DNA from: Hippea sp. KM1
GTDB lineage: Bacteria > Campylobacterota_A > Desulfurellia > Desulfurellales > Hippeaceae
Reading direction: 5' to 3'
Assembly (NCBI RefSeq): GCF_000526195.1
Contig: NZ_JAFP01000001.1
Location: forward strand, 904,001-968,000
Length of the DNA stretch: 64,000 nt
Under the pieces are notes generated by a model. The model saw nothing but the letters and a program-made list of their open reading frames with translations. It ran no database searches and had not been told where the DNA came from. Every line of letters starts with the position of its first letter. The first letter of the stretch is position 1. Below are positions 5,132-11,171 of the stretch, one piece after another. A program made the translations under genes and the position numbers.

Positions 5132-5734
5132 ATGAGCCTTATTGAGCTTTCCGTTATTGGTTTTGTGGCCGCCTTAACGCCCGGGCCAGATATACTGTTT
5201 ATTGTGCAAACCACGCTAAACCATTCATTTAAAGAGGCGCTAAAGGCCTTAAGCGGTGTTTTAACCGGGAATTTCATAGTTATTGCCATCCTGGTGGTTG
5301 GTCTTTCGTCCGTTGGCAGGAGTGCGTATTTTCAGATGACCATATCGCTTTTGGGTGGAATCTATCTATTATATGTGGCCTATGAGATATTCAAACACAG
5401 GAGGGATGAGGTAAGGGTTAGGCAACCCAAGGCCAAGACATTCTATCTAAAGGGACTAACGGTCAATCTATCAAACCCCAAGGCCATTATCTTCTTTAGC
5501 GCACTCATAGCGCCGTTTCTTGAAAATGGCAGACTCCTTTCGACGCTTCTGTTCCTGTTTAGTGGTATAGTTTTGGCTTTCATTTTTGCAATAACCCTAA
5601 CAGAGCTCCTTAGAAAGAACTTTCTAAACCCAAAAGTGGCAGTTGCCATAAATACGGCATCGTCGCTGATCTTCTTTTTCTTCTCTGTCGAGCTGCTCTA
5701 TTATTCCTATACGAAGTTTATGTCTGTCCTATAG
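5132..5734 (+). CDS. LysE/RhtB-family amino-acid exporter
   Basis: A 200-residue inner-membrane translocator with about six hydrophobic segments. The family hallmark TPGPD is at residues 16-20 and NLSNPKAI(I) begins the second half. Members export amino acids such as lysine, homoserine or threonine; the substrate here is unknown. It starts 8 bp after aorC with a GGGGGTTGT-type ribosome site, so it is the last gene of that run, and it overlaps the convergent DUF815 gene by 6 bp. Confidence 0.85.
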   Translation: MSLIELSVIGFVAALTPGPDILFIVQTTLNHSFKEALKALSGVLTGNFIVIAILVVGLSSVGRSAYFQMTISLLGGIYLLYVAYEIFKHRRDEVRVRQPKAKTFYLKGLTVNLSNPKAIIFFSALIAPFLENGRLLSTLLFLFSGIVLAFIFAITLTELLRKNFLNPKVAVAINTASSLIFFFFSVELLYYSYTKFMSVL

Positions 5735-6448
5735 ACCTAAGAGGTGGGAGATAACAAACTGTTTTGCTATGCGGCCGTTCCTTGCTCCTTTTGATGTGGC
5801 AAAGGCACAGGCCTGTTTCTGCCAGTCTTTAAACTCTTCCACCTCGTATTTGTCCATATAGAATTTGACGATTTTTAGGTATGTCTCTTTATCGGGTGAG
5901 CGAAACGAGACAACGAGGCCAAACCTGCCGTATAGGGACATCTGCTCGTTTATCTCATCCAAATCATAGATTGTGTCTGTTGTGGCCACACTGTCTTTAA
6001 CAAGATGCCTCTTGTTGGATGTTGCAACAAACATCACATTATCCGGTTTTTCCTCAAGCCCGCCTTCAAGCATCGATTTGAATTGCCTGTAATTATCATC
6101 CCTATGGTCAAATGATATATCATCAAAGAACAGGATAAACTTAAACGGCTCTGAGGATACATACTCATACAACTCATACAGGTCAGAATTGTCGTATTTT
6201 ACCTGCACAATCTTCAGTCCGTCTTTGTGATATTCATTGGCAAAGGCCTTAATTAGGGATGATTTGCCACAGCCCCTTTCGCCCCAAAGGAGCATATTTA
6301 AGAAGGGTTTGTTGGCAATAAAGGCCTCTATGTTTTTTCTGATCAGGAGTATTTGAGCATCAAGGCCTATAAGTTGAGATGTGCTTATATTGCTAAAATT
6401 TATGACCGGCTTGAGCTTCCCATCTCTATAGACAAACGCCCAATTCAT
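5729..6448 (-). CDS. DUF815 AAA-type ATPase
   Basis: A 239-residue P-loop protein of the DUF815 family, of unknown role. The Walker A motif (GERGCGKSS) is near residue 55 and Walker B (ILFFDDISF) near residue 108. An SNKRHL segment that recurs in DUF815 follows around residue 145, and an arginine-finger-like GRFGL around 180. It is the last gene of a minus-strand trio after gpmA and a LUD protein, and overlaps the LUD gene by 4 bp. No partner is obvious. Confidence 0.82.
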   Translation of the reverse strand: MNWAFVYRDGKLKPVINFSNISTSQLIGLDAQILLIRKNIEAFIANKPFLNMLLWGERGCGKSSLIKAFANEYHKDGLKIVQVKYDNSDLYELYEYVSSEPFKFILFFDDISFDHRDDNYRQFKSMLEGGLEEKPDNVMFVATSNKRHLVKDSVATTDTIYDLDEINEQMSLYGRFGLVVSFRSPDKETYLKIVKFYMDKYEVEEFKDWQKQACAFATSKGARNGRIAKQFVISHLLGL

Positions 6449-6858
6449 CTTATAACAAATACGACCTTTTCGGCTGCTTGAACGCCGCTTACCAGTTGTT
6501 TTTCTATATCAGCGGTTTTGCTTTCTGCTCCGATGAACATAAGGTAATTCCATTGGGTATCTCTGGCTTTTTCATACGCCTCATACATCGACGGATAGAT
6601 CTTATCCCTATCTATGATTATGTATAGCTCCTTGCTGTCGATTATGCAGCTTAATGCCTCTTTTGTGTTTGCTTCAACTAAGGCGTTCCCCTCGCTTGCA
6701 GCAGCTGAGATGGCCAAAACAACGCCGATGCCATCTTTTGAGAAGTGGGTTTTGCCATCATAGCCCAATTCGTTTATTTTTTGCTCTATTTCTTTTAAAT
6801 CTATAACATCGACGCCGTTTAGGTTTGCCGTCCTTTTGAACTGCTCAATCGTTTTCAT
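6445..6858 (-). CDS. Short LUD-domain (LutC/YkgG-like) protein
   Basis: A 137-residue protein. The C-terminal stretch FIGAESKTADIEKQLVSGV matches the LUD-domain signature normally read as GPS(R/K)TADIE..LV.GVHGP in LutC/YkgG. The central part, normally carrying A(D/E)TG(T/S), is degenerate here (ASEGNAL). LutC-type proteins are about 200-240 residues and act in lactate oxidation; this one is much shorter and no lutA or lutB is nearby, so its role is unknown. It overlaps gpmA by 14 bp and DUF815 by 4 bp, indicating one operon. Confidence 0.65.
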   Translation of the reverse strand: MKTIEQFKRTANLNGVDVIDLKEIEQKINELGYDGKTHFSKDGIGVVLAISAAASEGNALVEANTKEALSCIIDSKELYIIIDRDKIYPSMYEAYEKARDTQWNYLMFIGAESKTADIEKQLVSGVQAAEKVVFVIR

Positions 6859-7525
6859 CTTCGGACTTCTTTATAAAATTGCCGTCTTTGTAATCGTAAA
6901 TCAAGGGTTTGCCCGTTGGTATCTCAAATTTCGGTATGTCGTTGTCTGATATGTTCTCAATGAACTTTACTATAGCCCTCAGGCTGTTTCCGTGGGCGCT
7001 TATCAATATGTTTTTACCCTCCTCAAGCCTGGGGATTATGGTGGCCTTGAAGAACGGTATTGTCCTTTCGTAATTGTCCTTTAGGGATTCACCCCCTGGA
7101 GGGTTGATGTCATAACTCCTTCTCCATTTATGAACCATCTCTGCACCGAATTTCTCGGCCATCTCCTGCTTATTTAGCCCCTGCAGATTGCCGTAATACC
7201 TCTCGTTGAGTTCCTCTATCTCATACACAGGCAAAACGGGTATGTTTTCTGGCATATTGGCCCAATCCTTCATTCTGCCCTCGTTGTGCTGGATTATAGG
7301 GGTTTTACCGCATCCGTTTTTTGAAAGGGCTATCATTGCCGTCTGGATGGAGCGGATCAATACAGATGTATATACCTCATCAAAGCAGTAATCCTTCAAT
7401 ATCTCGCCAGCCCTCAAAGCCTCATCGATCCCTTCCTCTGCTAACGGCACATCGACCCAACCGGTAAAGAGATTCAACTTATTCCACATGGACTTTCCGT
7501 GTCTTAAAAGCACTAAAATAGACAT
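6845..7525 (-). CDS. gpmA: 2,3-bisphosphoglycerate-dependent phosphoglycerate mutase
   Basis: A 226-residue glycolytic/gluconeogenic enzyme interconverting 3- and 2-phosphoglycerate in the cytoplasm. The phosphohistidine motif LLRHGKSMWN is at the N-terminus, FTGWVDVPL and the ELNERYYGNLQG block follow, and the second catalytic histidine is in ISAHGNSLRAI. Length is close to the family norm (about 228-250), with a short acidic tail. AGGAGATG lies just upstream of the ATG. tRNA-Thr precedes it by about 57 bp on the same strand and may share its transcript. Confidence 0.95.
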   Translation of the reverse strand: MSILVLLRHGKSMWNKLNLFTGWVDVPLAEEGIDEALRAGEILKDYCFDEVYTSVLIRSIQTAMIALSKNGCGKTPIIQHNEGRMKDWANMPENIPVLPVYEIEELNERYYGNLQGLNKQEMAEKFGAEMVHKWRRSYDINPPGGESLKDNYERTIPFFKATIIPRLEEGKNILISAHGNSLRAIVKFIENISDNDIPKFEIPTGKPLIYDYKDGNFIKKSEDEND

Positions 7526-7702: not shown

Positions 7703-7731
7703 TTGAAAAATTATGCGCAATGTTGTATAAG
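7703..7731 (+). promoter_or_regulatory. Sigma-70-like promoter for the CBS-DHH gene and hppA
   Basis: TTGAAA (7703-7708), 17 bp, TATAAG (7726-7731), then GGAGGGG before the ATG at 7755. It is well placed to drive both downstream genes. Confidence 0.62.
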
Positions 7732-7754: not shown

Positions 7755-9059
7755 ATGAGAGGAATAAAGAATATCTATGTGGTGGGGAGAAAAAACCCTG
7801 ATTTGGATAGTGTTGTTAGCAGCATAGCCTATGCAGAGCTAAAGAACACAATAGACAGGGAGACAAACTATGTGGCTGCCGTTTGCGGCATGATAGATTC
7901 TACAACGCAGAAGCTGTTTGGGCATATGAATATACCGTTTCCCAAATACATATCCGACTTAAGCTTAAGGGTTGAGGATGTAATGACGCCCAACACCATA
8001 GTGGTTAACAAAAACGACCCTGTAACCGAGATATTTAAGCTAATGCTGAGAAACGACCTAATGGTGGTGCCTGTGGTTGACGATGATGAGAGGTTTGTCG
8101 GCTATTTCGGCATGATCGATATAGCAAGAAAAAGCATCTCCTCTGTAATGCCCGACATATTCAGAAAAATAAAGACCAGCATATCCGTTATAAAGAAGGC
8201 CGTCAACGGAGAGGTTATTGTAAAGATAGACGAGGATGAAACAAAACCGTTTGTTGCCACAACCATGATGGGCGTTATGGATTCAGAATATCTGTTTGAG
8301 ATTATAGACAGGGTCGATCCAGAAAGCGCCATAATAGTGGTGGGCAACAGAAGGGATCTTCAAAAGGCAGCTATAGAGTTGGGTGTTAAATGCATCATAC
8401 TATCCTACGGCTGCGACTTGGATGAGGAGTTGAAGGGCCTTGCAGAAGATAGGGGTGTTTTTGTAATAAAATCGGAATACGATGCATTTGCCACGGTGGG
8501 ATTGATAGAGTGGGGCATACCCGTTGATAATGTTTGTGAGAAGTCCACAACGGTGGTTAGCCCATCGGATCTCATAAACGAAATAAAGGAGAAGGTGTAT
8601 CATTCAAGCAACAGGGCTGTGGCTGTGGTTGACAAAAACAACAGGGTTAAGGGCATAATAACCCGAACCGATATAATAAAATACGACAAAAGGAATGTTA
8701 TACTCATAGACCACTCATCAAGCGCCAACGCCCCAGACGGCATATTTGAGTGCAATGTGCTTGAGATAATCGACCACCATAGACTCGGCGATATACAGAC
8801 CGGTTATAGAACACGATACAGGATTGAACCTTGGGGCTCAACCTCAGCTATTGTTGTCGATGAATTTGTAAAACATAAGGTTAAACCCTCCAAGACCACA
8901 TCGATGCTATTGGCTGCAGGCATAATAGTTAACACGGAATTTCTAAGCAACTCAAAGGTGACAGAATACGACAGAGAGGCCCTGCAGTGGCTCTGCTCGC
9001 TATGGGATATAGACATAGATGAGTTTACCGAAGAGATAAAAGGTGTATTAAATTTTTGA
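7755..9059 (+). CDS. CBS-DRTGG-DHH protein, degenerate family II (Mn) pyrophosphatase
   Basis: A 434-residue protein built like a CBS-domain family II inorganic pyrophosphatase: DHH-type N-terminus, CBS at about 75-135, DRTGG at about 155-250, second CBS at about 260-312, then the rest of the DHH domain. Metal-site residues D16, D18 (NPDLDS), D319 (LIDH) and D340-H341-H342 remain. However, the usual His of GH.NPD.DS is R12, the late metal Asp (normally in (I/L)(I/V)SDT) is N393, and the protein stops 41 residues later, so the roughly 110-residue DHHA2 substrate domain is absent. Known CBS-PPases are about 550 residues. Catalysis is therefore doubtful and a nucleotide-sensing role is possible. 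It is cotranscribed with hppA. Confidence 0.8.
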   Translation: MRGIKNIYVVGRKNPDLDSVVSSIAYAELKNTIDRETNYVAAVCGMIDSTTQKLFGHMNIPFPKYISDLSLRVEDVMTPNTIVVNKNDPVTEIFKLMLRNDLMVVPVVDDDERFVGYFGMIDIARKSISSVMPDIFRKIKTSISVIKKAVNGEVIVKIDEDETKPFVATTMMGVMDSEYLFEIIDRVDPESAIIVVGNRRDLQKAAIELGVKCIILSYGCDLDEELKGLAEDRGVFVIKSEYDAFATVGLIEWGIPVDNVCEKSTTVVSPSDLINEIKEKVYHSSNRAVAVVDKNNRVKGIITRTDIIKYDKRNVILIDHSSSANAPDGIFECNVLEIIDHHRLGDIQTGYRTRYRIEPWGSTSAIVVDEFVKHKVKPSKTTSMLLAAGIIVNTEFLSNSKVTEYDREALQWLCSLWDIDIDEFTEEIKGVLNF

Positions 9060-9077: not shown

Positions 9078-11144
9078 ATGATTAGCTCAACAACAGCGTT
9101 GTATCTGACATTTTTGGCTTCCTTCCTTTCGATAGGATATGCTATTTTTGCTGCATACTATGTTCTATCGAAGGAAGATGGCAACGAGAGGATGCGAGAG
9201 ATCGCCAAAGCCATCCAGGAGGGTGCTTTTGCTTTCCTATCGAGGGAATACAAGAGCATCGCCATCGTTGCTGTGGTGATATTTGCCATTCTATGGGCTT
9301 TGGGTGCAAAGAGTGAGCACTTTGGTCTGTTGACGGCATTGGGCTATCTAACGGGTGCCATACTTTCAGGATTGGCCGGTTATATCGGTATGGTCGTGGC
9401 GGTAAAGACCAATGTTAAAACGGCCCAAATGGCTAAAAACGGGCTTGCCAAGGCCTTGAATTTGGCTTTCAGGGGAGGCTCCGTTACGGGCTTTTTGGTT
9501 ACGGGTTTTGGTCTTTTGGCCATAGCCGGATTCTATTACATCTCGGTTTATGTCTTTAAACAGTCCGTTGAACATACAATAAAGGCCTTAATAGGTCTTG
9601 CCTTCGGAACAAGCTTGATCAGTGTGTTTGCCCGTCTTGGAGGTGGTATCTATACCAAAGCTGCCGATGTGGGTGCAGACCTTGTCGGTAAGGTGGAGGC
9701 AGGAATACCGGAGGACGACCCAAGAAACCCTGCTGTTATTGCAGACAATGTGGGTGATAATGTTGGCGATTGCGCTGGAATGGCAGCCGATGTCTTTGAG
9801 ACATTCACCGTTACAACCGTTGCTTCAATGGTTTTGGGATATAGCCTGTTTGATAAGGCAACAGGCAGCGTTGGCGTGGCAACGATGTTTCCTCTGCTTA
9901 TTGGAGCCATAGCTTCAGTTTCGGCTATTATAGGAACATTCTTTGTTAAATTGGGAAGATCCAACAACATCATGGGTGCATTCTATAAGGGTATGTTGGC
10001 AACGGCCGTTATAGCCCTTGTAATCATCTATTTTGCAGCACAGAAGTTCTTTGCTGGCGGCATAAAGTATAGTTGGGGTGTTGTAACGCCGAATGCCGTA
10101 TTCATGACCGCCTTGATAGGTATGGCAATAACGGCACTGCTTATGTTCATAACAGAGTATTACACATCCTATGAGTATCCACCGGTAAAATCAATCGCAA
10201 AATCATCCGTAACGGGTCATGCAACCAATATCATTCAGGGTATGGCTGTAATGCTTAAGGCACCTGCTGCCCCTGCTATAGTCATCGCTTTAGGCATCTT
10301 CTTCTCATACAAGCTTGCAGGACTTTACGGTATTGCTATAGCTGCAGCCTCTATGCTTTCTCTAACGGGTATGGTTATATCCATCGATTCATACGGACCA
10401 ATCACAGACAACGCTGGCGGTATTGCAGAGATGGCCGAGCTTGATGAGTCTGTTAGGGCAGTTACCGATCCCTTGGATGCCGTTGGAAATACAACAAAGG
10501 CCGTTACAAAGGGATTTGCCATAGGTTCTGCTGCTTTGGCTGCACTTGTTCTGTTTGCCGAATACACAAGGGCCATAGGCGGCAAAACGGCATTCGATTT
10601 GAGCGATCCTTTGGTATTGGTCGGACTGCTGTTAGGCGGTCTTCTGCCGTTCTATTTCGGCGCTATGAGTATGGAGGCAGTGGGTATTGCTGGCGGTATG
10701 ATGGTTGAAGAGGTTAGAAGGCAGTTTAAAACGATTAAAGGCATACTTGAGGGTAAGGCAAAGCCGGATTATGCCGCCTGTGTTGATATAGTCACAAGGG
10801 AATCACTGAAAAAGATGATAGCACCGGGATTGATACCGGTTTTGGGCCCGATTATCGTGTATGCCATATTTGGAAGGACGGCTTTGGGTGCGCTTTCTAT
10901 GGGTTCTATCATAACGGGATTCTTCTTGGCTGTTGCAATGACAAGCGGTGGCGGTGCCTGGGATAATGCTAAAAAATACATCGAGGATGGAAACTTCGGC
11001 GGCAAGGGTTCTGAAGCCCATAAAGCTGCAGTAACGGGTGATACGGTTGGTGATCCGCTTAAGGATACAGCAGGCCCGGCTATTAACCCGATGATTAAGA
11101 TCATAAACATCATTGCTATCCTGATTGTTCTGACAAGTATGTAA
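9078..11144 (+). CDS. hppA: Membrane-bound H+-translocating pyrophosphatase, K+-independent type
   Basis: A 688-residue polytopic enzyme (about 16 helices expected) coupling pyrophosphate hydrolysis to cation pumping. The substrate loop [20 protein letters not shown] and the acidic [16 protein letters not shown] block are intact, as is the late DNAKKYIE and [11 protein letters not shown] pair. The subclass motif reads GNTTKAVTK with K474 and T477; this Lys/Thr pair replaces the Ala residues of K+-dependent enzymes and marks the K+-independent H+-pumping class. It starts 18 bp after the CBS-DHH gene with GAGAGGAGG as ribosome site, and a terminator follows. Confidence 0.95.
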
Positions 11145-11149
11145 GAAAT

Positions 11150-11171
11150 AAGGGGGCTTGCCCCCTTTTTT
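11150..11171 (+). terminator. Rho-independent terminator after hppA
   Basis: AAGGGGG-CTTG-CCCCCTTTTTT: a G/C stem with a 4-nt loop and a T run, starting 5 bp after the hppA stop. Confidence 0.85.

Follow-up and report, generated by a model that had tools for sequence, protein, structure and literature searches.

The window analysed here, a stretch of 64,000 nucleotides, belongs to the genome of Hippea sp. KM1, a sulfur-reducing bacterium of hot vents, which consists of a single contig of 1.74 Mb. At positions 7755 to 9059 its forward strand carries an open reading frame of 434 amino acids that Pfam, NCBIfam and alignments identify as a CBS-pyrophosphatase (CBS-PPase) without the DHHA2 domain, hereafter the putative pseudo-pyrophosphatase psPPase. 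On the same strand, 18 bp past its stop codon, starts hppA (9078 to 11144), assigned by Pfam, NCBIfam and its GNTTKA motif to the membrane pyrophosphatases, and a terminator-like hairpin was detected by a hairpin scan 3' of it (11150 to 11167, forward strand). According to the accessible part of PMC10897367, the Lys of this motif marks the K+-independent class of these enzymes. The spacing between both genes is that of the original prediction, which had also placed them under one good promoter. A candidate sigma-70-like box (TTGAAA-N17-TATAAG) was read by eye at 7703 to 7731 on the forward strand; it is missing from the promoter-scan list because the scan accepts only second hexamers closing in T, so the shared promoter is plausible although unproven. 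The hairpin scan revealed no terminator-like hairpin in the 18-bp gap. Upstream of psPPase, a tRNA-Thr gene lies on the opposite strand, and positions 5729 to 7525 of the reverse strand encode a histidine-phosphatase (phosphoglycerate mutase-like), a short LUD-domain protein and a DUF815 AAA protein, a trio that is found together in all three other wider loci compared within the genus (L043, L044, L048).

In psPPase, a DHH domain (PF01368) was detected above the cut-off, split across residues 6-390, and the CBS-DRTGG-CBS insert noticed at first reading lies inside it. In its first part (residues 6-66; 7770 to 7952) the DHH domain contains the motif GRKNPDLD, in which R12 replaces a metal His and D16 and D18 are kept. 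This part is followed by CBS1, with an altered motif, and the linker behind it (67-145; 7953 to 8189), the DRTGG domain (PF07085, 146-252; 8190 to 8510), CBS2, with its G-h-h-T-R-x-D motif intact (253-312; 8511 to 8690), and the second part of the DHH domain (313-397; 8691 to 8945), with D319-H320-S321, D340-H341-H342 and N393, the latter in place of a metal Asp, all of them on the forward strand. The CBS model (PF00571) matched in two stretches, the best one at 73-126. As had been noted, 41 residues follow N393 and DHHA2 is missing: its profile (PF02833) matched neither psPPase nor any other part of the window's genome. A frameshifted or downstream-encoded DHHA2 was also rejected on this absence and on the position of hppA, which leaves no space for a frameshifted domain. 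Among the NCBIfam models, those of putative Mn-dependent pyrophosphatases come nearest; alignments to the best eight run to around position 414-437 of their 540-576 positions, and the score was below the curated cut-off for every NCBIfam PPase model listed.

The distribution of this short form was studied in a sample of 386 genomes around the window, with matches accepted at E values up to 1e-25. Matches were detected in 42 of these genomes, corresponding to 22 short frames, all within the phylum of the window, and 33 others of 536-607 aa. In another phylum, matches came from 39 of 395 genomes, and their frames measured 547-920 aa except for three short ones, one in genome G740 and two in G504. 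These three are located at contig ends or close to them, so they were taken as fragments and rejected as short forms. A third sample of 4 genomes contained two with full-length matches, both already in the first set. Among the approximately 780 genomes sampled, the phylum of the window was the only source of the DHHA2-less form. All 25 available genomes of this phylum were searched and 22 have it, comprising the 16 of the window's own family (Hippea-type, f1), the three of a family taken, from its kinship, as Desulfurella-type (f2) and the three of a third family (f3), with none of the three genomes of the fourth (f4). These proteins are 428-434 aa long, the orthologues reach down to around 44% identity, and one copy is 83% identical to that of the window. 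A plasmid search gave matches in 5 of 72,556 records, with identities of 23-28% and extending up to residue 428 of psPPase.

Phylogenetic analysis grouped the short forms in one clade (UFBoot 95; FastTree 1.0) with a long stem, nested among full-length CBS-PPases, and within it the tree follows the families, f3 standing outside f1 and f2. The dN/dS ratio was 0.022-0.170 in 10 of the 12 pairs of short forms compared, dS being saturated in the other two, both involving the window, and the gene is under purifying selection. As the R12/N393/no-DHHA2 state is fixed in 22 orthologues that have diverged this far, with low dN/dS, it represents more than chance, and the two substitutions count as a single evolutionary event and not as 22 independent ones. 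A full-length CBS-PPase is also present in 13 of the 22 short-form genomes (L064-L076). These 13 copies are not a clade, the smallest one holding them having 18 tips with other phyla mixed in, which suggests a later horizontal gain besides the inherited short form; the full-length paralogue was probably acquired by transfer. A recent local truncation of this paralogue was rejected as the origin of psPPase, the short-form clade being apart from the full-length copies of the phylum.

The metal site was compared with the core of the B. subtilis PPase, whose metal-site residues we take to be H9, D13, D15, D75, H97 and D149, plus H98. In the alignment, GHQNPDTD faces GRKNPDLD and IIsDs faces IIvNt, the His corresponding to R12 and the Asp to N393. 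Judging from the B. subtilis structure, these two lost ligands presumably serve different metals of the pair. All 22 short forms have R12 and N393 versus His and Asp in all 33 full-length CBS-PPases (15 of 15 in an earlier set), which bears out the two replacements originally proposed and restores no His or Asp to the site. The remaining residues D16, D18, D319, H341 and H342 are unchanged in the 22 short forms. Overall, 82 of the 434 positions are invariant among them, including all seven metal-site or catalytic positions (hypergeometric P 7e-6, relatedness ignored), and the five kept ones are also invariant above expectation (P 2e-4, relatedness again ignored), so the psPPase pocket may have retained the binding of a metal or a ligand.

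Other features of this family were also compared. The SRKKQ motif is absent, RKKQ being found in none of the 22 short forms versus SRKKQ in 15 of 15 full-length sequences. Position 321, which by its spacing from the DHH motif corresponds to Asn312 of the Desulfitobacterium hafniense CBS-PPase (dhPPase), is Ser in the short forms versus Asn in the full-length ones, all but one, in the sets of 15 and 33. The available text of PMC7226116 describes that the change of Asn312 to Ser abolishes kinetic cooperativity in dhPPase, so the path linking the sensor to the active site is altered in psPPase too; it also assigns the high-affinity substrate site of the family to the C-terminal domain. Furthermore, dhPPase with its DHHA2 deleted (delta-dhPPase) forms tetramers without activity, in which the binding of Mant-AMP is unchanged and that of Ap4A is tighter, as stated in the portion of PMC10742508 consulted. 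Because psPPase has the architecture of this inactive construct, plus two ligand changes, it was read as a pseudo-pyrophosphatase, in support of what had been proposed. From its sequence and the published inactivity of the engineered protein, it very probably has no PPase activity, and it fits a pseudoenzyme, with catalytic residues lost, purifying selection on the gene and a presumed loss of activity.

Regarding the nucleotide-sensing part, it matches by sequence the structures 3L2B/3L31. Structure prediction for the monomer from 8 sequences was weak (mean pLDDT 64, pTM 0.48), and the PDB matches of this low-confidence model, again 3L2B/3L31, merely repeat the sequence matches. CBS2 has G300, T303, R304 and D306 in the 22 short forms; in CBS1, G116 and D122 are kept, position 119 is Gly or Asp, and the Ser/Thr is lost in all 22. 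The Lys100 of dhPPase, which neutralises the alpha-phosphate of the ligand (PMC11172384, in its accessible part), is matched by Arg in 12 of the 22 and by Met, Leu, Val or Ile in 10, with Met in the protein of the window, and the position of Arg276 is conserved neither in the short forms nor in the full-length CBS-PPases. With CBS2 kept, and CBS1 and the Lys100 position changed, binding of nucleotides by psPPase is likely, with a strength or preference that may differ from those of known CBS-PPases. The proposal of a nucleotide sensor is thus backed by the fold and the CBS2 motif, and weakened by the loss of the CBS1 Ser/Thr and by the retention of the Lys100 charge in only 12 proteins. Conservation within psPPase is highest in DHH part 2 and CBS1, and the mean entropy of CBS1 plus linker is 0.89 bits in the short forms versus 1.28 in the full-length ones. 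After CBS1, the stretch 126-141 has 9 of its 16 residues invariant among the 22 short forms, a block that the full-length proteins do not share; this region, picked post hoc, may be a docking surface.

The presence of other pyrophosphatases was also analysed. A membrane PPase is encoded in the 25 genomes of the phylum (31 of the 31 searched), and a family I PPase in none of the 25, the window's included, the only one among the 31 being that of an outsider. DHHA2 proteins were found in 13 of the 22 psPPase genomes and in none of the other nine, among them that of the window, whose other DHH proteins (frames of 584, 324 and 859 aa) have no DHHA2. Thus, the profile search for another soluble pyrophosphatase, to which the original prediction had pointed, found none of family I or of the DHHA2-bearing kind in this genome, and, for the two types searched, the organism seems dependent on the membrane pump for the removal of pyrophosphate. 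On the side of pyrophosphate production, pyruvate phosphate dikinase was above the curated cut-off in 7 of the 25 genomes, belonging to f2, f3 and one genome of f4, and in none of the 16 of f1; it was rejected as a common source of PPi, with no link to psPPase.

As concerns the gene neighbourhood, hppA lies directly downstream of psPPase in the 19 genomes of f1 and f2, with 13-21 bp between the stop codon and hppA, and these pumps have GNTTKA in 18 cases, the remaining one being cut by the contig. This is the case in none of the three f3 genomes, in which psPPase is followed by purC, starting 7-8 bp past its stop codon (L061, L062, L063), and the membrane pyrophosphatase is encoded elsewhere in the genome (L101, L102, L103), with around 45% identity to the HppA of the window and the motif GNTTAA of the K+-dependent type. 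A GNTTKA hppA gone from between psPPase and purC, with a GNTTAA pump elsewhere, represents a swap of pump type inside one phylum. The f4 genomes, without psPPase, have a GNTTKA hppA in two of three cases, the third being cut by the contig; hppA precedes purC in G022 and ends at the contig end in G024. A full-length CBS-PPase beside hppA, as ancestor of the pair, was not found in 20 outside loci, covering mostly around 4 kb per side and in some cases cut by contig ends. The presence of psPPase without a neighbouring hppA in f3 indicates that the gene outlasted its neighbour, from which it follows that psPPase serves any membrane pyrophosphatase or that its target is something else. The survey upheld the gene pair in two families, and the action on HppA suggested at first has in its favour the order of the genes in 19 of 19 genomes, and against it the three f3 genomes.

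We consider that these data are best explained if psPPase is a conserved, non-hydrolytic, nucleotide-binding tetramer that signals to a partner, an explanation to which, as a whole, we give a probability of around 0.55. An ancestral CBS-PPase would have lost DHHA2 together with two of its metal ligands, a His being replaced by Arg and an Asp by Asn, on a single occasion before three of the phylum's four families diverged from their common ancestor, and the protein would have been kept since then in a non-hydrolytic form. Most likely, psPPase would form tetramers via DHH and CBS contacts, as CBS-PPases do, and would bind AMP, ADP, ATP or diadenosine polyphosphates, mainly through CBS2. The conformational change driven by the nucleotide would then go by contact to a partner protein and not to the active site, and the likeliest output would be the control of pyrophosphate turnover, in most genomes by way of the membrane pyrophosphatase transcribed along with it. 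Among single candidates for the partner HppA ranks first, and its direct control by psPPase is a speculative proposal that we find doubtful; other points in pyrophosphate or purine metabolism would be the next candidates. A dedicated regulator that reads the adenylate or Ap4A state and accordingly slows, stimulates or reverses proton pumping by the PPi-driven pump is more tentative still. If this were true, energy charge would directly set the pyrophosphate energy stored as membrane potential, in an organism that seems to rely on the pump and still keeps, adjoining the pump gene, the sensor portion of a soluble pyrophosphatase. Full-text literature searches gave no paper whose title or first lines of the abstract describe a natural DHHA2-less CBS-PPase or a protein that regulates a membrane pyrophosphatase, which is weak evidence of absence as most subscription papers fall outside such searches.

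The main alternative, unlikely in our opinion, is that psPPase is an enzyme for another reaction, in which a remodelled one- or two-metal DHH pocket would hydrolyse another phosphoester without DHHA2, with Arg12 perhaps holding the phosphate. Five unchanged positions of the seven in the metal site, the invariance of the two changed ones as well, and the high conservation of DHH part 2 and CBS1 would agree with this; however, two metal ligands are gone, and the protein has no DHHA1 or DHHA2 substrate-binding domain, in a family that has its high-affinity substrate site in the C-terminal domain (PMC7226116, available text). Somewhat less probable is a role in purine or nucleotide metabolism and not with the pump, psPPase being gated by nucleotides and linked to the purC-purQ-hemL stretch. 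Its basis is that in 17 of 22 genomes purC comes just after psPPase, with or without hppA in between, and almost contiguous to psPPase in f3, but a terminator-like hairpin separates hppA from purC in the window, the stretch examined in each of the three Desulfurella-type genomes gave no purC match (two further genomes have contigs that stop before that point), and f4 shows the order hppA-purC without psPPase. The modulation of the full-length paralogue through mixed tetramers, conceivable in the 13 genomes that have both proteins, is very improbable, given that the other nine psPPase genomes, including that of the window, lack any DHHA2 protein and that the paralogue, mixed with outside lineages, is probably a later transfer. 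A decaying pseudogene or a truncation artefact, which a missing domain and changed catalytic residues could have indicated, is already contradicted by the intact frame in 22 genomes, the low dN/dS of the 10 usable pairs and the 82 invariant positions.

The reading of psPPase as a non-hydrolytic sensor can be compared with known systems. Cdc45 is a DHH-family (RecJ-like) protein turned scaffold, and so it resembles psPPase in the reuse of a DHH phosphoesterase fold without catalysis, although it differs in DHH branch, partner and process. The closest relatives are the CBS-PPases, such as dhPPase, the Moorella mtPPase and the C. perfringens protein of the 3L2B/3L31 regulatory part, to which psPPase is alike in the split DHH domain and in the CBS-DRTGG-CBS insert at the equal place, as well as in its best NCBIfam and regulatory-part matches. 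In contrast to them, it has no DHHA2 or SRKKQ, shows Arg and Asn at the metal positions, and Ser at that of Asn312. It shares its domain architecture with delta-dhPPase, a tetramer that lacks activity and binds both an AMP analogue and Ap4A (PMC10742508, in the part available). The construct is man-made, by deletion of DHHA2 only, whereas psPPase is natural and has, in addition, two ligands replaced and the CBS1 site altered. The same text reports that delta-dhPPase is more heat-stable than the full enzyme and was imaged by electron microscopy, which makes a thermophilic natural psPPase an attractive structural target. Whatever its target, psPPase is, by its predicted architecture, the natural counterpart of the engineered DHHA2-less CBS-PPase, a construct made to study nucleotide sensing apart from catalysis.
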